Assembly: GCF_041821065.1 (NCBI RefSeq)
Contig: NZ_JBGUAX010000004.1
Coordinates: 310,001 to 374,000, forward strand
Direction: 5' to 3'
DNA from: Egicoccus sp. AB-alg2
GTDB lineage: Bacteria > Actinomycetota > Nitriliruptoria > Nitriliruptorales > Nitriliruptoraceae
Length of the DNA stretch: 64,000 nucleotides
Position 1 is the first letter of the stretch. Each line of letters begins with the position of its first letter. The notes under the pieces were generated by a model, which saw only the letters and a list, made by a program, of their open reading frames with translations, did not search any database and was not told where the DNA came from. A program made the translations under genes and the position numbers. Below are positions 6,985 through 16,158 of this stretch, in pieces.

Positions 6985-8088
6985 ATGCCGTTCGAGGTAC
7001 GCAAGGTCGAGATCAAGAGCGTCACGGACGCCTCGGGCCTCGCCGAACTGATCGACGACGGGGTGTTCGCCGCCGACGACGTCATCGCCGTGATCGGCAA
7101 GACGGAGGGCAACGGCGGCGTCAACGACTACACCCGGATCCTGGCAGACCAGGCCTTCCGCGGCGTGCTGCTCGACAAGGGCAGCCGCTCGGAGGACGAG
7201 GTCAAGGAGATCCCGATGGCGTGGTCGGGCGGTTGCGACGGGGTCATCACGCCGCACGCCACGGTCTTCGCCCGCGTGCCCGACGACCAGGGGGTCGACA
7301 CCGACGAGAAGCGTCTGTCGGTCGGCATCGCGATGTCGGACGTGCTGCTGCCGGAGGACATCGGGCGGCCGGCGATGGTGGAGAAGGTCGCCGAGGGCGT
7401 GAAGCGGGCCATGGCCGAGGCCGGCATCACCGACGTCGCCGACGTCCACTACGTGCAGACCAAGACGCCGCTGCTGGTCCTGGAGACCATCCAGGACGCC
7501 CACCGCCGCGGCGAGACCGTCTACACCGAGGACACGCTGTACTCGATGGACATCTCCAACGGCACGACGGGCCTGGGCATCGCGTACGCGCTCGGCGAGA
7601 TCGACCGGGTGCCGGACCCCGAGGAGATCGGCAAGAACCACGACCTGTTCTCCTCGGTGGCCTCCTGCTCCTCGGGCGTGGAGCTCGACCGGGCCCAGAT
7701 CGTGGTGGTGGGCAACGCGCCCGGCGCGCGCAGCCGCTACCGCGTCGGCCACGGCGTCATGAAGGACGCGATCGACCAGGACGGCATCTGGGACGCCATC
7801 CGCAGCGCCGGGATCGAGCTGCCCGAGCGCCCGCACCACAGCGACCTCGACGGCCGGCTGGTGAACGTGTTCCTCAAGTGCGAAGCCGACCCGCGCGGGG
7901 AGGTCCGCGGCCGACGGCAGCTGCCACTGGACGACTCCGACGTGCACCACCACCGCCAGATCAAGGGCGCCGTCGGCGGCGTCACCGCCGCCACGGTCGG
8001 GGACACGGCGGTGTTCGTGTCCGTCGCCGCCCTGCACCAGGGACCGCTCGGCGGCGGCCCCGTCGCGGCGATCGTGCGCGCGGACTGA
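6985..8088 (+). CDS. Ring-opening amidohydrolase (barbiturase / cyanuric acid amidohydrolase family)
   Basis: 367 aa from ATG 6985 with an AGAGGAG site just upstream. The family is built from three repeats around a threefold axis, each giving a Ser-Lys pair. All three are present: Lys39 in VIGKTEGNG with Ser81 in AWSGGCDGV; Lys160 in VQTKTPLL with Ser229/Ser230 in ASCSSGVEL; Lys298 in VFLKCEA with Ser346 in [11 protein letters not shown]. The metal-binding tail [12 protein letters not shown] is intact. Members open barbiturate to ureidomalonate or cyanuric acid to carboxybiuret. The PucR regulator, NCS2 nucleobase permease and nearby molybdenum hydroxylase favour barbiturase; no atzE/atzF/atzG-like set adjoins it. 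Sequence alone cannot settle the substrate. Probably the first gene of an operon with the permease. Confidence 0.85.
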
Positions 8089-8141
8089 CCGCGTCGAGCC
8101 CCCGGCCCCGTCGCAGGGCGCCAACTTCGACCAAGTTCGAC

Positions 8142-8174
8142 CGGAGGCATCGGCACAATGTGCCGATGCCTCCG
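8142..8174 (+). terminator. Strong hairpin between amidohydrolase and permease genes
   Basis: A 15-bp perfect stem (CGGAGGCATCGGCAC at 8142-8156 with its complement at 8160-8174) closed by a 3-base AAT loop. It lies 54 bases after the amidohydrolase stop with no U-tract. It could terminate, attenuate or stabilise the upstream mRNA; which one is not decidable from sequence. Confidence 0.6.
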
Positions 8175-8358
8175 TCGTGTCGAGGTTCCTAGGTTTCGCG
8201 GGCACTCGGCCGGACACTGGCCGAAAGGGGAAGTACCGTTCCACGGGCGGCGGGGCGAATCGGGAGAAACGGACATCGCCGTCCCAAGGGGGGAGTGTGT
8301 CACCCGGCACACGCGGGTCGCGAGCAGCGGCCGGAGACGACCGCGAAGGAGAGGGAAC
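8175..8358 (+). promoter_or_regulatory. Leader region of the NCS2 permease gene
   Basis: About 185 bases without a credible gene, running from the hairpin to the permease ATG. It ends in a good GGAGAGG Shine-Dalgarno (8348-8354). It contains a small GTGT/ACAC hairpin near 8296-8311 and several purine-rich runs. It may be a structured leader or hold a separate promoter. I do not recognise a known riboswitch. Confidence 0.3.
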
Positions 8359-9819
8359 ATGAGCGCAGAGGCGCCCTCACGCCCCAACGGGCTGAACTAC
8401 GGACTCGACGACATCCCGAAGCCGTTCCCGAAGGCACTCGGCCTCGGGTTGCAGCACGTGCTGACCATGTTCGGCGCCACGATCGCGGTGCCGTTCATCC
8501 TCTCACCGTTCCTGGAGTTCGACGGCGGCCAGCTGGCGATCCTGATCAGCTCGGTGTTCATCTGCTCGGCCGTCGCCACGTTCCTGCAGGTGCAGTTCGG
8601 GTCACGGCTGCCGATCGTGCAGGGCGTGTCCTTCGCCTTCCTCGGCCCCTTCATCGGCCTGGCGTCCACCTACCAGGGTGTCGACGCCATGCGCTACATC
8701 GCCGGCGGCATCATGGCCGGCGCCGTCGTGGAGATGATCGTCGGCTTCGGCGGCATCGGCGGGCTGCTGCGGCGCTACGTGACGCCGATCACGATCGCGC
8801 CGGTGATCGCGTTGATCGGTCTGTCGCTGTTCGACGCCGCCACGTTCAACTCGTCACTGAACTGGTGGGTCGCGCTGAGCACGCTCGGCGTGATCTTCGT
8901 GTACTCGCTGATCCTGGCGCCCCGCGTCCGGATGTTCTCCCTGTTCCCGATCCTGCTGGCCGTGCTGACGGTCTACGCCGTGCTGCTGGTCATGTCGCTG
9001 GCCGGCGCCATCCCGGAGGACAGCGCCGCCTTCGTGTCGTTCGGGGCGGTCGGAACCACGCCGTGGATCCGCGGGCTGGTCCCCGGTGAGGGGGGCATCT
9101 TCCTGCCCTGGGGCTCGCCGCTGCTGCCGCCGCTCGGCTTCATCTTCGCCATCCTGGCGGCCTACCTGGCCTCCACGATCGAGTCCTTCGGCGACTACCA
9201 CGCCGTGTCGCGCATCGCCGGCGCCGGCGACCCCGACGCCCGCACCATCAACCGCGGCATCGGCTTCGAGGGCGTGGGCTGCTTCTTCACCGGGCTCCTC
9301 GGCGGGTTCTCCTCGACCTCCTACAGCGAGAACATCGGCCTCGTGGGGCTGACCAAGGTCGCGAGCCGCTTCGTCGTGCTGCTCGGTGCCGGCTTCCTGC
9401 TGGTCTTCGGTCTGGTCGCCAAGGTCGGTGCGGTGATCGCCTCGATCCCGACCCCGATCGTCGGTGGCGTGTACCTGGCGCTGTTCGGCCTGATCGCGGC
9501 CGTGGGCCTGTCGAACCTGCGCCGGGCCGACCTGGACTCGCAGCGCAACCTGATGATCGTCGGGTTCCTGCTGTTCATGGGCCTGGTCGTGCCCAACTAC
9601 TTCAACAACTACGTCGGCGAGGACTGGTCGCTGTTCGGCATCGACCTGCTGACCAGCATCGTGCAGGGCATCGGCAGCTCCGGCATCGCCGTCGCGGCCA
9701 TCCTCGGACTGCTCCTGGACAACCTGATCCCCGGCACCGACGAGGAGCGTGGCGTCGGCGTCTACGACCTCGGGACCAAGGCGCCCGTGATCCCGCCGGA
9801 GGACATGCGCGGCATGTGA
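8359..9819 (+). CDS. NCS2 family nucleobase permease (uracil/xanthine type)
   Basis: 486 aa, about 14 hydrophobic segments, ATG 8359 with a strong ribosome site. The fold markers of UraA-like proteins are clear: GLQHVLTMFGATIAVP in TM1, QVQFGSRLPIVQGVSFAFLG in TM3, the TM8 Glu275 in STIESFGDYHA and the TM10 Glu324 in TSYSENIGLVGLTKV. The two Glu residues sit 49 residues apart, as do Glu241 and Glu290 of E. coli UraA, so substrate binding should be intact. It imports a nucleobase or similar ring by proton symport. Position after the ring-opening amidohydrolase says it supplies that pathway's substrate or precursor: uracil, barbiturate, xanthine or uric acid are the candidates. Confidence 0.9.
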   Translation: MSAEAPSRPNGLNYGLDDIPKPFPKALGLGLQHVLTMFGATIAVPFILSPFLEFDGGQLAILISSVFICSAVATFLQVQFGSRLPIVQGVSFAFLGPFIGLASTYQGVDAMRYIAGGIMAGAVVEMIVGFGGIGGLLRRYVTPITIAPVIALIGLSLFDAATFNSSLNWWVALSTLGVIFVYSLILAPRVRMFSLFPILLAVLTVYAVLLVMSLAGAIPEDSAAFVSFGAVGTTPWIRGLVPGEGGIFLPWGSPLLPPLGFIFAILAAYLASTIESFGDYHAVSRIAGAGDPDARTINRGIGFEGVGCFFTGLLGGFSSTSYSENIGLVGLTKVASRFVVLLGAGFLLVFGLVAKVGAVIASIPTPIVGGVYLALFGLIAAVGLSNLRRADLDSQRNLMIVGFLLFMGLVVPNYFNNYVGEDWSLFGIDLLTSIVQGIGSSGIAVAAILGLLLDNLIPGTDEERGVGVYDLGTKAPVIPPEDMRGM

Positions 9820-9841
9820 CCCCGCCGGCGTCCCACCACCC

Positions 9842-9874
9842 CCGGGGCCGCGACCGTCATGGTCGCGGCCCCGG
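9842..9874 (+). terminator. Hairpin terminator after the permease
   Basis: A 14-bp perfect GC stem (arms 9842-9855 and 9861-9874) with a 5-base loop, 22 bases after the permease stop. It likely ends the amidohydrolase-permease transcript. Confidence 0.65.
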
Positions 9875-9987
9875 CCGCGTCCTGGAGCGCGAGCGGTGCA
9901 CGGCCGTGTCGCGTCCTCCCCTCGAACGGGGCCGACACGTCGCAAACCGCGGCCGGCGTCCGACCCTCCGCGTTACGCTCCGACGAC

Positions 9988-11025
9988 GTGGCCGTCCGAG
10001 GCCACCCGAGGCCAGGCCGGGGGTTGGAAGAGATCGCCGAGGCGGCGACGGCGCTGTTCCACGCGCTCGCCGACGGAGCCGCCGTGTTCGAGCTGCTGCC
10101 AGGGGGCGACGACCTGCGCGTCGTCGTGGCCAACGCGGCCGCGGCAGCCGTCTTCCAGCTGCCCGAGGCGCAACTGCGAGGTCGCCTGGGTAGCGAGCTG
10201 TACCCGCCGGACGAACTCGCCGACGTGCTGCGACGTGCCCGTGACACGCTCGCGGCGGGCGGGCCGGTCAGCTACCGGGCCGTCCGCGAGCAGCCGTATG
10301 GCCGCCGCGTCGTGGAGGCGACGATGATCCCGTTCGGTCGCGAGCGGGTCGTGGTCCACGGCCGCGACATCTCCGAGCGCGCCGAGGCGCTGCGCCGGCT
10401 CGACGAGCTGGAGCGCCTGGCCGACATCGGCAGCTGGGGCTGGAACGTCGCCGACGGCACCGTGACCTGGTCGCGCCAGTACCGCCGCATCCTCGGGATC
10501 GCCGACGACGAGCCCGCCTCGATCCCGCGCGTGCTGGACCTGGTCCACCCCGACGATCGCGACCGCGTCCTCGGCCGCATCGACGTGGTGGGGTCGGGAC
10601 GCGACATCGTGCGGGGGATCACCTACCGCATCGTGCGCCCCAGCGGCGAGGTCCGCGTCGTGCAGTCCCGGGGCGAGGTCGTCACGGATGCGGACGCGCG
10701 CCCGGTCCGCGTGTTCGGCACCATGCAGGACGTGACCGAGCAGCAGCGGGCCGAGCAGGCGTGCCGGCAACTCGATCGGGCGCTCGCGCGACAGCGGCAG
10801 GCGCTGGAGCTCAACGACAACGTCGTGCAGGGCCTCTCGGCGGCATGGCTGGCGTTCGAGCTGGGACAGCACCAGGAGGGCATCGACCTCGTCCAGCGCA
10901 CCACGCTCGATGCACAGGGGTTCATCAGCCGCCTGTTGCGCGAGGCCGCCGAGGACGAGCCGCTGCAGCCGGGCGCGCTGGCCCGCGTCGCACCCGCCAA
11001 CGTCGACCACCCGGAGGGCGGATGA
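9988..11025 (+). CDS. Two-PAS sensor protein without a kinase domain
   Basis: 345 aa from GTG 9988. A TACGCT -10-like box at 9974-9979 puts the transcript start almost on the GTG, so a leaderless message is likely; this decided the start. PAS 1 spans about residues 15-130 and ends VVHGRDISERAEAL; PAS 2 spans about 145-255 (IGSWGWNVADGTVTWS to FGTMQDVTEQQRAEQ). The remaining 80 residues hold a helical segment ELNDNVVQGLSAAWLAFELG that resembles the HisKA_3 phosphoacceptor helix but has Asn where His would be, and no ATPase domain follows. It overlaps the response regulator by 4 bases, so the two should work as a pair. The signal is unknown. Confidence 0.75.
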   Translation: MAVRGHPRPGRGLEEIAEAATALFHALADGAAVFELLPGGDDLRVVVANAAAAAVFQLPEAQLRGRLGSELYPPDELADVLRRARDTLAAGGPVSYRAVREQPYGRRVVEATMIPFGRERVVVHGRDISERAEALRRLDELERLADIGSWGWNVADGTVTWSRQYRRILGIADDEPASIPRVLDLVHPDDRDRVLGRIDVVGSGRDIVRGITYRIVRPSGEVRVVQSRGEVVTDADARPVRVFGTMQDVTEQQRAEQACRQLDRALARQRQALELNDNVVQGLSAAWLAFELGQHQEGIDLVQRTTLDAQGFISRLLREAAEDEPLQPGALARVAPANVDHPEGG

Positions 11026-11387
11026 GCTGGCGTCTGGTGCTGGCCGACGACGACGCGACCCTCCGGCGCCTGCTGCGGCTGCTGCTCGAACGCGACGGAC
11101 GGTTCGAGGTCGTCGGCGAGGCCGCGGACGGTCGCGAGGCGCTGACGGCGCTGACGGAGACCGACCCCGACCTGCTGCTGCTCGATCTGGCCATGCCGAA
11201 CATGGACGGCCTCGAGGTGCTGGCGGAACTCGACGGGACCGACCGTCCGGTCGTCGTCGTGCTGACGGGGTTCGCCGAGGACGACCTGTGCCGACAGGTG
11301 CTGTCGCTGGGCGCGCGGGCGTGCCTGCAGAAGGGCAACGACTTCGCGAGCCTGACCGAGCGGCTGGCCGCCGCCGTGGCGGCCTGA
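11022..11387 (+). CDS. Single-domain response regulator
   Basis: 121 aa; ATG 11022 overlaps the PAS gene stop (ATGA). It is a receiver domain only: acidic cluster LADDDATLRRL, phosphoacceptor Asp in DLLLLDLAMPNMDG, switch Thr in VVVVLTGFAEDD and Lys in CLQKGNDF. There is no output domain, so it must act through protein contacts, as CheY-like or phosphorelay regulators do. The upstream partner lacks a catalytic domain, so a kinase elsewhere may phosphorylate it. Confidence 0.85.
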   Translation: MSWRLVLADDDATLRRLLRLLLERDGRFEVVGEAADGREALTALTETDPDLLLLDLAMPNMDGLEVLAELDGTDRPVVVVLTGFAEDDLCRQVLSLGARACLQKGNDFASLTERLAAAVAA

Positions 11388-11392
11388 CGCGA

Positions 11393-12148
11393 CTACGGGC
11401 GGAGCCGGTCGGCCAGCGCCGGGAGCCAGTCGACGAGGTCGTCGGCGACGACCGCGTCGGCGACGCGGTCGTACGGCGTCGGTTCGGCGTTGGCGATCAC
11501 CAGCCGGGCACCGGCTTCCAGGGCGGTGCGCGGCAGCAACGCCACGGGATGCACGGTGAGCGAGGTCCCGAGCGCGAGGAACACCTCGCAGCCGATCGCG
11601 GCCTCGTGGGCCCGCTGCAACTGCCCGGGGTCCAGGGACTGGCCGAACGAGACCGTCGCCGCCTTCAGCAGTCCGCCGCAACGCTCGCAGTGCGGGTCGT
11701 CGTCGCCCGCGGCGACCCTCGCCAGCACGTCCGGCATCGGTCGGCGGTCGCCGCATTCGAGGCACCGGGTGAACCGGTTCGTGCCGTGCACCTCGACGAC
11801 GCGTGCGGGGTCGCTGCCGGCGTCCTGGTGCAGGCCGTCGGTGTTCTGCGTGACCAGCACGTCGAGGTGGCCGAGGCGTTCGAGGTCCGCGAGCGCCACG
11901 TGTGCCTCGTTCGGGCGTGGCCGCAGGTGGGCGTCGGCGGCGCGCTGCCGCCAGAGGTCCCGGCGCGTGTCCGGCTCGGTCAGCCAGACGTCGATGCTCG
12001 AGCGGCGCTCCGCGGCGGGGTCCCGGGTCCAGACACCCTGCGGCCCGCGGTAGTCGGGGATCCCGGAGGCCGTGGAGACGCCGGCGCCGGTCAGTGCAAC
12101 GACCCGGCGCGCGGTGCGGATCCACCCCGCGACCTCGTCGACATCCAC
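11393..12148 (-). CDS. Sir2-family NAD-dependent protein deacylase
   Basis: 251 aa from GTG 12148. Sirtuins remove acyl groups from lysine using NAD+. Visible motifs in order: NAD-binding TGAGVSTASGIPDYRGPQGVW, catalytic-site LVTQNTDGLHQDAG and VEVHGTN, four zinc cysteines (CLECGDRR and CERCGG), then ALGTSLTVHPVALLP and VIANAEPTPYD. An upstream in-frame ATG at 12229 would add a Cys/Arg-rich stretch foreign to the family, so the GTG, with a GGAAGG element upstream, is preferred. It is convergent with the response regulator, 5 bases away. Possible target: regulation of acyl-CoA synthetases or catabolic enzymes; this is family knowledge, not seen here. Confidence 0.85.
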   Translation of the reverse strand: MDVDEVAGWIRTARRVVALTGAGVSTASGIPDYRGPQGVWTRDPAAERRSSIDVWLTEPDTRRDLWRQRAADAHLRPRPNEAHVALADLERLGHLDVLVTQNTDGLHQDAGSDPARVVEVHGTNRFTRCLECGDRRPMPDVLARVAAGDDDPHCERCGGLLKAATVSFGQSLDPGQLQRAHEAAIGCEVFLALGTSLTVHPVALLPRTALEAGARLVIANAEPTPYDRVADAVVADDLVDWLPALADRLRP

Positions 12149-12287
12149 CGCTTTCGTCGCCTTCCCGCGTCCGCGTCGGGCGCACGGTAGGCGCCGGCCC
12201 CGCGGGCTGCAGATCCGGCATGGTCGCACAGCGCACCGGTACCCGGTTCGGCAGAGGTTGACGACGCCCCGGGGGTCCGGCCTTCGC

Positions 12288-12293
12288 TAGCGT
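12288..12293 (+). promoter_or_regulatory. -10 box of the Mo-hydroxylase operon
   Basis: TAGCGT, the same hexamer seen before several other genes here, 27 bases upstream of the coxM-type GTG start. A TTGACG lies at 12258-12263 but the 24-base spacing is too long for a standard pair. Confidence 0.4.
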
Positions 12294-12320
12294 CCCACGC
12301 TCGGAGGCGAGGGAGATCAT

Positions 12321-13232
12321 GTGAAGCCCCCGGTGTTCGCCTACCACGCACCGCGGTCGGTCGAGGAGACGCTCGAGCTGTTGGCGCAGCTCGGCGCCGA
12401 GGCGAAGGTGCTCGCCGGCGGCCAGTCGCTGGTGCCGATGCTCAACATGCGACTGGTGGCGCCGGCCGTCCTGGTCGACATCCGGCACCTCGACGACCTC
12501 GACACCGTCGAGGTCGCCGACGGCCGCGTCCGCGTCGGCGCCCGGGTGCGCCACCGCCGCCTGGAGCGTGACGACGCGGCCCATGCGGCCCAACCGGTGC
12601 TGCGCGAGGCGCTGGAGCTGGTCGCCCACCCCGTCATCCGCAACCGCGGCACCAGCGTCGGCTCCATCGTCCACGCCGACCCGGCCGCCGAGCTGCCGGC
12701 CGTCGTCGCACTGCTGGACGCGCGGCTGGAGCTGACGTCGCGTGACGGCGTGCGGCACGTGACGGGCGCGGACGCGTTCCTCGGCCCCTTGGAGAGCGCG
12801 CTGCGGCCCGGCGAGCTGGCGACGGCCGTGGAGTTCCCGGTCCGGTCCCCGTACGGCGGCGCCGCCGTCGAGGAGTTGGCGCGCCGGCACGGCGACTACG
12901 CACTCGCGGGCGTGGCGGCACAGGTCGACCTCGACGAGGACCGCCGGGTGACCGCGGCGAAGGCGGCGTTCTTCGGGGTCGGTGGCGAACCGGCCGCGAT
13001 CGACGTGGGCCAGGCGCTGGCCGGTCAGCCCGCCGACGCGCTGCGCGTCGACGACGCGGTCGGCCTCGCCCGCGACGGGCTGGACCCCGACGACGACATC
13101 CACGCGACCGCGTCCTACCGGCGCCACCTCGCCGGGGTGCTGCTGGGCCGGGCGCTGGTCCGCGCCGCCGCGGCCGCCACGACGCCGACCGCGGCCTCGA
13201 CGCCCGACCCGGCCCGGGAGGTGCACGCGTGA
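12321..13232 (+). CDS. coxM: Molybdenum hydroxylase FAD subunit (CoxM/XdhB type)
   Basis: 303 aa from GTG 12321, with GAGGGAG upstream. It carries FAD between the iron-sulfur subunit and an external acceptor. N-terminal FAD loop: AKVLAGGQSLVPMLNMRL; the second FAD loop: RNRGTSVGSIVHADPAAELPA; CO_deh_flav_C domain from about residue 180. First gene of an operon whose members overlap by 4 bases (coxM-coxS-coxL-coxG-amidase). Symbols follow family shape only; this is not a CO dehydrogenase (see the large subunit). Confidence 0.9.
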   Translation: MKPPVFAYHAPRSVEETLELLAQLGAEAKVLAGGQSLVPMLNMRLVAPAVLVDIRHLDDLDTVEVADGRVRVGARVRHRRLERDDAAHAAQPVLREALELVAHPVIRNRGTSVGSIVHADPAAELPAVVALLDARLELTSRDGVRHVTGADAFLGPLESALRPGELATAVEFPVRSPYGGAAVEELARRHGDYALAGVAAQVDLDEDRRVTAAKAAFFGVGGEPAAIDVGQALAGQPADALRVDDAVGLARDGLDPDDDIHATASYRRHLAGVLLGRALVRAAAAATTPTAASTPDPAREVHA

Positions 13233-13780
13233 CCGAGGAATTGCACGACGTCACCGTGACGGTCAACGGCGCGCTGCACCGCGCGTCCGTGCCGGCGCGG
13301 CGCCTGCTGTCCGACTTCCTGCGCCACGACCTGCGACTGACCGGCACCCACGTGGGCTGCGAGCACGGCGTCTGCGGGGCCTGCACCGTCCTGCTCGACG
13401 GAGAGCCGGTCCGTTCGTGCCTGACGTTCGCCGTGTCGGTCGACGGCGCGGCCGTCACCACCGTGGAGGGTCTGGCCGCCGAGGACGGCACGCTGCACCC
13501 GGTGCAGCAGGCGTTCCAGGACTGCCACGGCCTGCAGTGCGGGTTCTGCACCCCCGGCTTCGTGATGAGCGCCTGCGGGTTCCTGGCCGAGCACGCGGAG
13601 CCACGGCCGGACCAGATCCGCGAGGGCATGGCCGGCAACCTGTGCCGCTGCACCGGCTACGCCGGCATCCTGGCGGCCGTCGAGCAGGCCGCCGGGGTGC
13701 TGCGCGAGACCGGCGCCGACCCGCGGGACCGGCACGTCGCACGCGACCGCGGGCACGACGAGGCGGAGGTGTCGTCGTGA
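13229..13780 (+). CDS. coxS: Molybdenum hydroxylase [2Fe-2S] subunit (CoxS/XdhC-small type)
   Basis: 183 aa. Plant-type [2Fe-2S] domain with VGCEHGVCGACTVLLDGEPVRSC near residues 45-70, then the fused four-helix [2Fe-2S] domain with LQCGFCTPGFVMSA and GNLCRCTGYAGI. Both clusters are complete, so electron flow from the Mo site to FAD is intact. It ends with a charged tail of about 25 residues longer than most CoxS proteins. GTG start overlaps coxM stop; the end overlaps the coxL start. Confidence 0.92.
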   Translation: MTEELHDVTVTVNGALHRASVPARRLLSDFLRHDLRLTGTHVGCEHGVCGACTVLLDGEPVRSCLTFAVSVDGAAVTTVEGLAAEDGTLHPVQQAFQDCHGLQCGFCTPGFVMSACGFLAEHAEPRPDQIREGMAGNLCRCTGYAGILAAVEQAAGVLRETGADPRDRHVARDRGHDEAEVSS

Positions 13781-16158
13781 CCACGCGCCAGTTCGGGACC
13801 GCGGTCGCCCGCGTCGAGGACCCGCGTCTGTTGCGCGGCGAGGGGCGCTACCTCGACGACCTCGGCCACGACGCGCTGGCCGTGGCCATCCTGCGCAGCC
13901 CCCATGCGCACGCACGGATCCGCGACATCGACGTGACCGCCGCCGTCGACGTGGACGGGCTGGTCGCGATCTACACCTACGAGGACCTGCCGCCACGACT
14001 GCAGCAGGCGATGCCGCTGCTCATCCCGCACCCGTCGCTGACCGCGCCCGTGACCCAGAAGGTGCTGGCCGACGGCGAGGTCAACCACGTCGGCGAAGCG
14101 GTCGCGATGGTCGTCGCCAGCGACCGGTACGTCGCCGAGGACGTCCTCGACCGCATCCGCGTCGACTACGAGATCCTGCCGGCCGTCGTCGACCTCGAGG
14201 TGGCCGTCGGGAACGGGGGCGCCGTCCACGACGCCGTGCCGGGCAACGTGGCCGCGGAGATGGAGCAGACCATCGGCGACGCGCCGTCCGCGATCGAGGC
14301 GGCCCCGCACCGGCTCTCGCTGCGGCTGGACATCGAGCGTTCCGCGTCCACGCCGATGGAGGGCCGCGGCGTCCACGCCCGGTGGGACCCCGACGACCGG
14401 CGGCTGCGGGTCCACACCTCCACACAGGCCCCCACCAGCGTCCGCGCCGCCATCGCCACCTTCCTGGAGCTCGACTTCGCTCAGGTCGAGGTGGTCGTGC
14501 CCGACGTCGGCGGCGGCTTCGGCGTGAAGATCATGCACCCGTGGCCCGAGGAGATCCTCGTGCCCTGGGCGGCGCGGCTGCTGGGACACGACGTCAAGTT
14601 CACCGAGGACCGCCACGAGCACTTCGTCTCGGCCAACCACGAGCGCGGCCAGGTCCAGTGGGTCGAGGTCGGTTTCGACGACGACGGACGCATCCTCGGC
14701 CTGGACGTGCGGTTCCTCCACGACCACGGGGCCTACATCCCGTACGGCCTGATCGTGCCGATCATCACGTCCACGCAGCTGCTGGGGCCCTACCGGATCG
14801 AGCACTACCGGGTCCGCTTCCAGAGCGTCTACACGAACAAGACGCCCGTGACCCCCTACCGCGGCGCCGGCCGTCCCCAGGGCTGCTTCCTGATGGAGCG
14901 CACGGTCGACGCCATCGCCGCGCAGCTCGGCCTCGACCGCACCGAGGTGCGCGCCCGCAACTTCATCCAGCCCGACGAGATGCCCTACGCCTTCGGCCTG
15001 ACCTTCCAGGACGGCCGCGACTACACCTACGACTCCGGCGACTTCCCCGCCTCGCTGGCCAAGCTCAAGGAACTGGTCGACTGGGACGGCTTCGCCGCCC
15101 GCAAGGAGGCGGCCGCCGCCGAGGGTCGCCTGCTGGGCATCGGCCTCGCCTGCTACGTCGAGGGCACGGGCGTCGGTCCGTACGAGGGCGGCCACGTCCT
15201 GGTCGAACCCAACGGCACCGTGCAGGTCGCAACCGGCCTGGGCACCCAGGGGCAGGGGCACCAGACCGCGTTCGCGCAGATCGCCGCCGACGAGCTGGGG
15301 GTGCCGCTCGAGCAGGTGAAGGTCGTCACGGGCGACACGCGCCGGTTCCAGTACGCCGTCGGCACCTTCGCGTCGCGCGCCGCGGTCATGTCCGGCAACG
15401 CGATCCACCTCGCCGCCCGCAAGGTGCGGGAAAAGGCCCTGCAGCTGGCCTCCGACGCCCTGGAGGTCGACGTCGAGGATCTCGAGCTGGCCGACGGGCG
15501 CGTCCAGGTCGTCGGCAGCCCGGACACCGGTTTGCCGCTCTCCATGCTGGCGACGCTGTCCAACCCGCTGCGCTACGCCTTCGACGAGCACGCCAAGGCC
15601 GCGACCCAGTTCGCCGGCCCCAACGACCCGAACAAGCCGCCCGTCGCCGAAGGGCAGGCCCCGGGCCTGGAGGGCACGGACTACTACTCGCCGGTGCGCT
15701 CGACGTTCGCCAACGGCATGCACGCCGTCGAGGTCGAGGTCGACCCAGCCACCTCCGACATCCGCATCCAGCGCTACGCGGTGGTGCACGACTGCGGCAA
15801 CCTCATCAACCCCCGCATCGTCCAGGGCCAGGTCCTGGGCGGGGTGGCCCAGGGCGTCGGTGGCGCGCTGTACGAGCGCATGGCCTACGACGAGCACGGC
15901 CAGCTGCTCAACGCGTCGTTCATGGACTTCCTCATGCCCTATGCGACCGAAGTCCCGCCGGTGGAGATCGACCACCTGGAGACGCCGTCGCCGCTGAACC
16001 CGCTGGGGATCAAGGGTGCCGGCGAGGCCGGGGTCATCCCCGGCTCGGCCGCCATCGCCGCCGCCATCGAGGACGCGACGGGGGTCCCCATCCACGCCAT
16101 GCCGATCTCGCCGTCGCAGCTGCACGAGCTGCGCACGGCCGCAGGAGGTGCCCAGTGA
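13777..16158 (+). CDS. Molybdenum hydroxylase large subunit (not form I CO dehydrogenase)
   Basis: 793 aa from GTG 13777. It binds the Mo-cytosine-dinucleotide cofactor and hydroxylates a substrate carbon with water as oxygen source. Motifs include VRGEGRYLDDL-like start, DVGGGFGVKIMHPWPEE for cofactor binding, GLGTQGQGHQTAFAQIAADE, and the catalytic Glu750 in IKGAGEAGVIPG. The active-site loop at 360-366 reads PYRGAGR, not the AYxCSFR loop with the S-selanyl-cysteine copper site of aerobic CO dehydrogenase, so CO is not the substrate. Neighbours (barbiturase-type enzyme, NCS2 permease, amidase) make an N-heterocycle likely; uracil/thymine hydroxylation to barbiturate is my preferred reading. 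Overlaps both flanking genes. Confidence 0.9.
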   Translation: MTTRQFGTAVARVEDPRLLRGEGRYLDDLGHDALAVAILRSPHAHARIRDIDVTAAVDVDGLVAIYTYEDLPPRLQQAMPLLIPHPSLTAPVTQKVLADGEVNHVGEAVAMVVASDRYVAEDVLDRIRVDYEILPAVVDLEVAVGNGGAVHDAVPGNVAAEMEQTIGDAPSAIEAAPHRLSLRLDIERSASTPMEGRGVHARWDPDDRRLRVHTSTQAPTSVRAAIATFLELDFAQVEVVVPDVGGGFGVKIMHPWPEEILVPWAARLLGHDVKFTEDRHEHFVSANHERGQVQWVEVGFDDDGRILGLDVRFLHDHGAYIPYGLIVPIITSTQLLGPYRIEHYRVRFQSVYTNKTPVTPYRGAGRPQGCFLMERTVDAIAAQLGLDRTEVRARNFIQPDEMPYAFGLTFQDGRDYTYDSGDFPASLAKLKELVDWDGFAARKEAAAAEGRLLGIGLACYVEGTGVGPYEGGHVLVEPNGTVQVATGLGTQGQGHQTAFAQIAADELGVPLEQVKVVTGDTRRFQYAVGTFASRAAVMSGNAIHLAARKVREKALQLASDALEVDVEDLELADGRVQVVGSPDTGLPLSMLATLSNPLRYAFDEHAKAATQFAGPNDPNKPPVAEGQAPGLEGTDYYSPVRSTFANGMHAVEVEVDPATSDIRIQRYAVVHDCGNLINPRIVQGQVLGGVAQGVGGALYERMAYDEHGQLLNASFMDFLMPYATEVPPVEIDHLETPSPLNPLGIKGAGEAGVIPGSAAIAAAIEDATGVPIHAMPISPSQLHELRTAAGGAQ

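Follow-up and report, generated by a model that had tools for sequence, protein, structure and literature searches.

What can a sensor protein do that carries neither an ATPase domain nor a phospho-acceptor histidine, when the gene next to it encodes a receiver without an output domain? Such a pair is encoded by two overlapping genes in a 64,000-nucleotide stretch of the Egicoccus sp. AB-alg2 genome, hereafter the window. An interpretation made earlier from the letters of the window (the sequence-only reading) had noticed the pair and proposed that it works either by direct binding that does not involve phosphorylation or by borrowing a kinase.

The reading frame of the PAS protein begins with a GTG at position 9988 and is open already from an ATG at 9859 (Table 1). 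The motif singled out by the sequence-only reading, ELNDNVVQGLSAAWLAF, corresponds to residues 274–290 in the frame from GTG 9988. C-terminal of the PAS regions Pfam reports neither HATPase nor HisKA at E≤1; about 90 residues are left blank, and 69 residues lie C-terminal of Asn276. The receiver gene starts at ATG 11022 and overlaps the PAS-gene stop codon TGA 11023–11025 (ATGA). Its product (P0002) consists of one Response_reg domain (Pfam, residues 6–115 of 121, E 8.7e-25). Judged by its sequence, it is a single-domain response regulator: the acidic pair, phospho-Asp, Thr and Lys are present at positions assigned by our own alignment, and there is no output domain. The proposals that Asn occupies the acceptor site, that no ATPase domain follows and that the next gene is a bare receiver were thus borne out. 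A frameshifted kinase was also considered and rejected, since the receiver gene follows at once.

Table 1. Features of the PAS protein–receiver locus (positions in the window)
Feature	Positions	Strand	Basis or remark
PAS-PAS-[pseudo-DHp, Asn type] sensor protein, 345 aa	9988..11025	+	start codon uncertain
First PAS region, residues 28–132	10069..10383	+	Pfam PAS_4
Second PAS region, residues 140–249 (PAS_3 159–246)	10405..10734	+	Pfam PAS and PAS_3, E 1e-15
HisKA_3-like helical hairpin (predicted): helix 1 residues 258–291, helix 2 residues 295–323	10759..10956	+	AlphaFold2, hhalign, DesK superposition
Asn276 at the phospho-His position	10813..10815	+	translation and family alignment
Asp277, D of the DxxxQ motif	10816..10818	+	family alignment, 88/88
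Gln281, Q of the DxxxQ motif	10828..10830	+	family alignment, 87/88
C-terminal tail PGALAR (family motif GxLxR)	10969..10986	+	family column conservation
Single-domain receiver, 121 aa, D9, D10, D55, T82 and K104 intact	11022..11387	+	Pfam Response_reg and alignment

The pair, together with the peptide ELNDNVVQGL, is kept in all four genomes of the genus examined. In the three relatives the hairpins are 60–68% and the PAS parts 59–66% identical to those of the window, and third codon positions vary most. Conservation of the pair in these genomes with such third-position-biased differences points to more than chance. The pair lies between genes for an AtzD-type ring-opening amidohydrolase and a xanthine/uracil permease (NCS2-type) on one side and SIR2 and a three-subunit molybdenum hydroxylase on the other. 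In two genus relatives (L132 and L133) the amidohydrolase and permease are found on one side, about 5 kb off, and the molybdenum hydroxylase on the other; SIR2 turned up in L133 and on a short contig (L134), but not in L132. The catabolic region containing the pair spans window positions 7000–16155, and the gene order round the pair is kept in two genus relatives. We regard a link between the pair and this neighbouring catabolic region as a lead only.

The sequence-only reading took the C-terminal helix for a HisKA_3 helix, and several comparisons agree with it. Profile-profile comparison (hhalign) of the family described below with true HisKA_3 kinases gave 98.1% (E 1.3e-13), with acceptor aligned to acceptor. 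HisKA_3 is also by far the commonest weak Pfam match: at E≤1 it appears in 20 of 38 members (best 7.9e-5), against four for the next family. It is below the cut-off in the two members with bit scores shown (L002 and L005), and the hairpin of the window protein itself has no Pfam HisKA_3 match at E≤1. AlphaFold2, run on the family alignment, predicted two helices (model residues 2–35 and 39–67) with a mean pLDDT of 91.3. Superposition of this model on DesK with VIA-align gave 2.0 Å over 67 residues (5iuj_A, Z 7.8) and, for another structure, a Z of 8.1 but 7.7 Å over 75 residues (3ehf_B); Z values of this size are common for helical hairpins, and other histidine kinases as well as unrelated helical bundles also match. 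Placing model residues 1–68 on DesK 176–242 aligns the turn and not the acceptor, so the hairpin appears to be about seven residues shorter per helix than that of DesK. Foldseek with the hairpin model returned no match at E≤0.001. The five matches from a search of solved-structure sequences with the family profile (four designed proteins and one CopG regulator) were set aside as chance composition. A model of a hairpin fused to its receiver reached a pTM of 0.55 and gave no docking information. Overall, these comparisons support HisKA_3 kinship of the predicted hairpin. By membership the PAS protein is nevertheless not a HisKA_3 kinase: DxxxQ is present, but two defining features, the phospho-His and HATPase, are absent.

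The Egicoccus genome encodes three further ATPase-less proteins like the PAS protein, all with His at the acceptor position. One of them (L002) is also PAS-PAS, 43% identical over 195 residues, and no receiver was found beside it. The second (L005) is followed by a bare receiver and the third (L008) by a receiver-HisKA-HATPase protein. The membrane parts of L008 (at about 447.8 kb) and of L102 show a resemblance, too weak to pass the Pfam cut-off, to the N-terminal domain of the ethylene receptor ETR1. A profile built from the four proteins gave 29 matches, spread over 11 of the 66 genomes searched in the window's class. Across the phylum, 30 of 396 genomes had matches at E≤1e-6; in 18 of them the best match (E≤3.5e-16) belongs to the same family, which we refer to as pseudo-DHp, and in the other 12 the only matches (2.8e-9 or weaker) are HisKA_3 kinases. 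In the classes of six other genomes, 4/18, 5/246, 2/3, 2/4, 12/300 and 28/393 genomes were matched at E≤1e-9. The family is patchy, yet spread over Actinomycetota.

Altogether, 88 ATPase-less relatives from Actinomycetota genomes form one family. They were defined as fetched loci scoring at least 37 with a common profile (A4, built from 38 of the 40 sequences of the initial set, with L050 and L031 left out), and several come from close relatives. On this scale the ATPase-less proteins score 37.4 or more and the HisKA_3 kinases 34.2 or less; the threshold was chosen by eye in the gap between these values. At most 60 residues follow the domain match in 79 members, and the remaining nine carry a fused receiver. 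The sequence-only reading had suggested a survey of ELNDNVVQGL and its gene neighbours; the profile searches yielded a single family, with a receiver partner in 49 of the 88 members. A peptide-pattern census of one genome per species (84,980 species) gave 64 fitting stretches, six of them confirmed and all six labelled actinobacterial, including one Nitriliruptorales and one Frankiales; this census, the sole search reaching outside Actinomycetota, is too narrow for counts. A plasmid collection gave no pseudo-DHp match. Literature searches, which covered few subscription papers, turned up no account of the family, and novelty is not proven by this.

The acceptor position itself is variable. It holds Asn in 53 members, His in 16, Gln in 15 and Ser in three (L121 is unaligned there), so that 71 of the 87 aligned members have a residue other than His. 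By comparison, the position following it (+1) is Asp in 88/88 members and position +5 is Gln in 87/88. Among 75 full-length rows no other well-filled column of the 84 is as conserved as these D and Q, while the acceptor column ranks 14th, two columns ahead being nearly empty. As the original profile favours D and Q, we repeated the search with the acceptor, D and Q masked. In the window's class the masked profile again found the same 29 places in the identical 11 of 66 genomes; in another class it matched 30 times, in 27 of 394 genomes, and the unmasked search had previously picked up many of these. From the 62 distinct aligned rows we removed three spurious second matches inside counted proteins (L161, L168 and L119). 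In the 59 genuine matches, which overlap largely with the 88 members, D and Q are each present in 59/59, and the acceptor is Asn in 29, His in 12, Gln in six and Ser in three, with nine trimmed.

True kinases provide the reference. Thirteen HisKA_3 kinases were recovered as weak matches, and H, D and Q are each present in 13/13. Twelve were scanned with Pfam (L067 was outside the scan): HisKA_3 was above the cut-off in 12/12 and HATPase_c was found in 11, above the cut-off in nine (it is below in L058 and L063, and the stretch with L061 ends within the gene). With H, D and Q all constant in the kinases, and the acceptor varying in the family where D and Q hardly do, D and Q outlive His; the Fisher value of 9.5e-9 ignores the relatedness of the sequences. 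Parsimony gave at least ten changes of the acceptor on a poorly resolved tree (75 of the 88 rows, 13 gappy ones having been dropped, plus the 13 kinases; 80 columns), of which the starred branches force only two acceptor changes for each residue. One member, L086 (HDEVVH), is the sole one without the Gln; its acceptor is still His, and a bare receiver adjoins it. A Gln-acceptor branch (AQDDVVQAL, QDDLVQTL) comprises L116–L118, L120 and L122–L129 from 12 genomes of family code f125; an adjacent receiver was found in 0/12 of these members, two of which are near contig ends. The masked profile matched five more f125 genomes (L173, L175–L177 and L179).

To find the partners, we searched with one receiver as query (E<1e-5, up to 60 nt downstream), which can miss some. 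A receiver is directly downstream or fused in 49 of the 88 members: 28 are bare, 12 are longer and nine are fused C-terminally. The downstream matches start between −3 and +45 nt from the sensor stop. No directly downstream or fused receiver was found for the other 39 members (35 with enough DNA and four near contig ends), two of which have a receiver gene nearby that is otherwise placed, upstream on the same strand in L047 and on the opposite strand in L100. Similarity to P0002 was dropped as a marker of partnership, the comparison set having contained duplicate loci. The sequence-only reading had staked itself on the receiver Asp being functional in homologues. The phospho-Asp is indeed conserved in 49/49 partner receivers, as is the second acidic residue (49/49); the first acidic residue is Asp in 48 and Glu in one, and Lys and Thr/Ser are each present in 48/48 where aligned. 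The partners share no conserved Arg at the position of DesR Arg84. All nine fused proteins keep N, D and Q as well as the receiver catalytic residues. Together, the pairing, the fusions and the intact receiver catalytic residues suggest that the sensor likely controls the phosphorylation state of the receiver. All 12 longer partners have both Response_reg and HATPase_c, nine of them with Pfam HisKA in addition, and one protein (L052, 970 aa in the stretch) combines MASE1-PAS-pseudoDHp(Asn)-REC-HisKA-HATPase in one polypeptide. In some loci, then, the receiver may in turn control a kinase. The earlier suggestion of a borrowed kinase is plausible, given that in these 12 loci the partner receiver carries an HATPase domain of its own.

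What the sequence-only reading missed is that Asp277 and Gln281 make up a known phosphatase motif. In published work, DxxxQ is required for the phosphatase activity of NarX, as it is for CheZ (PMC3510030), and the acceptor His is nonessential for the NarX activity (PMC5231405). In the DesK–DesR phosphatase complex His188 faces away, contact with the receiver is made by Asp189, and Gln193 positions the water (PMC5231405). In RapH, a helical-bundle/TPR protein, Gln47 dephosphorylates the single receiver Spo0F (PMC3035606). The window pair has what a Rap/CheZ-like phosphatase calls for, a catalytic amide and a partner receiver with an intact phospho-Asp, as far as primary structure can tell. The PAS protein thus probably works like the phosphatase half of a HisKA_3 kinase. 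The fuller explanation we favour, with somewhat better than even confidence, is that the PAS protein is what remains of a HisKA_3 kinase, with phosphatase activity only and under PAS control, and that it acts in a Rap/CheZ-like manner on its receiver, the kinase being elsewhere. The kinase parts, the ATPase domain and here also the acceptor His, would have been lost and Asp277 and Gln281 kept. Another kinase or a small phosphodonor would put phosphate on the receiver. The hairpin presumably dimerises, and a signal sensed by the PAS regions would twist it, switching the hydrolysis of phospho-Asp55 on or off; Asp277 would contact the receiver and Gln281 would position the water for attack, on the model of NarX/DesK, CheZ and RapH.

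A phosphatase-only descendant would be expected to have lost His and the ATPase domain while holding D and Q fixed, as is seen here. Counting against this explanation are the 39 members for which no directly downstream or fused receiver was found, the missing Gln of L086, the lack of a DesR Arg84 counterpart and the apparently shorter hairpin. In addition, a Corynebacterium ChrS whose ATPase domain carries a frameshift behaved like a phosphatase-defective protein (PMC9491836), and DrBphP, which is of the HisKA type, depends on ATP for its phosphatase activity (PMC8292422), so a DHp without a CA domain need not be active. D and Q could also be held by docking or packing instead of chemistry.

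The strongest competitor, which we consider unlikely though worth taking seriously, is phospho-dependent docking without catalysis: the pseudo-DHp would bind the phosphorylated receiver and block or shield it, or read its state, with PAS tuning the affinity. Precedents exist, as the Q47N variant of RapH retains binding to Spo0F and prevents phosphotransfer (PMC3035606) and DivL, a kinase turned to a new use, senses the phosphorylation of a receiver (DivK~P) (PMC4211667). A candidate docking surface is present as well. Past the hairpin the family shares a GxLxR tail (+53 G in 58/70, +55 L in 63/69, +57 R in 64/68), found in its strict form in 55 of the 88 members, often as PGDLVRxxPA, versus 0 of 13 kinases; it is possibly a receiver docking element. 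Binding alone, however, does not account for D(+1) and Q(+5) being under the tightest constraint of all columns, and no output domain follows the hairpin to act on a reading.

The variable acceptor bears on an improbable alternative, that the hairpin is a phosphotransfer module, either a Spo0B/ChpT-like histidine phosphotransferase or, in a split kinase, the half that bears the acceptor, with the Asn members as inactive derivatives. Split histidine kinases reportedly exist (PMC3591291), His is kept in 16/88 members, and two of these (L008 and L011) adjoin receiver-HisKA-HATPase genes. Yet most aligned members, the window protein among them, have replaced the His, and within one small tree group (support 86, unstarred) His in L008, L011 and L013 alternates with Gln in L022 and L029 while D and Q(+5) stay constant. 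The receivers, in turn, tell against the main idea of the sequence-only reading, a constitutive sensor–receiver complex independent of phosphorylation. The overlapping genes and the fusions do suggest a physical complex, but with the phosphorylatable Asp in every partner receiver and the catalytic Lys in every aligned one, and with sensors that keep the residues acting on phospho-Asp while the acceptor varies, we give this idea little credence. Finally, a functionless, decaying kinase remnant would account for the missing His and ATPase domain of the window protein and is very improbable, given its retention in four genus genomes with third-position-biased differences and the presence of the family in several classes with identical conserved residues.

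If the phosphatase-only explanation is true, the family would point to signalling in which a sensor acts only by switching its partner off. Ordinary sensor kinases carry both activities, kinase and phosphatase, on a single helix, and it is difficult to take the two apart; many natural proteins of this family seem to have done so, with the kinase parts missing and the phosphatase residues fixed. The family would thereby allow a direct test of the residues that dephosphorylation requires when no ATPase domain is present, and it gives a name to a domain that Pfam leaves blank or scores below the cut-off. For Actinomycetota as a whole, we put at even chances the broader proposal that they harbour uncatalogued signal-controlled phosphatases derived from dismantled HisKA_3 kinases, whose receiver is bare, fused, or fronting a different HisKA-type kinase. 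Such an arrangement would turn the two-component scheme into an inverted system, with the stimulus read out only via removal of phosphate.

Among known systems, the family resembles the HisKA_3 kinases NarX and DesK in its predicted DHp-like hairpin, DxxxQ, sensor domains in front and a receiver encoded adjacently. It differs from them in having no ATPase domain, an acceptor His that is usually replaced and an apparently shorter hairpin, and in a partner receiver that either stands bare or is linked to a kinase. The pseudokinases DivL and ChrS are similarly kinase-derived and act in signalling without kinase activity of their own. DivL differs in that, as described, the catalytic output domain of a kinase has come to serve as an input sensor, and the ChrS form in being a laboratory-evolved frameshift mutant and not a natural family. 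CheZ, unlike the PAS protein, is not known to have a PAS sensor. It is alike in that DxxxQ acts on a single receiver (PMC3510030), and the likeness here is one of motif. The sensor part of Rap proteins is TPR, and their likeness to the hairpin is of function: the PAS protein would be, as RapH has been shown to be, a sensor-controlled phosphatase of a single-domain receiver that acts through a helical-bundle Gln.
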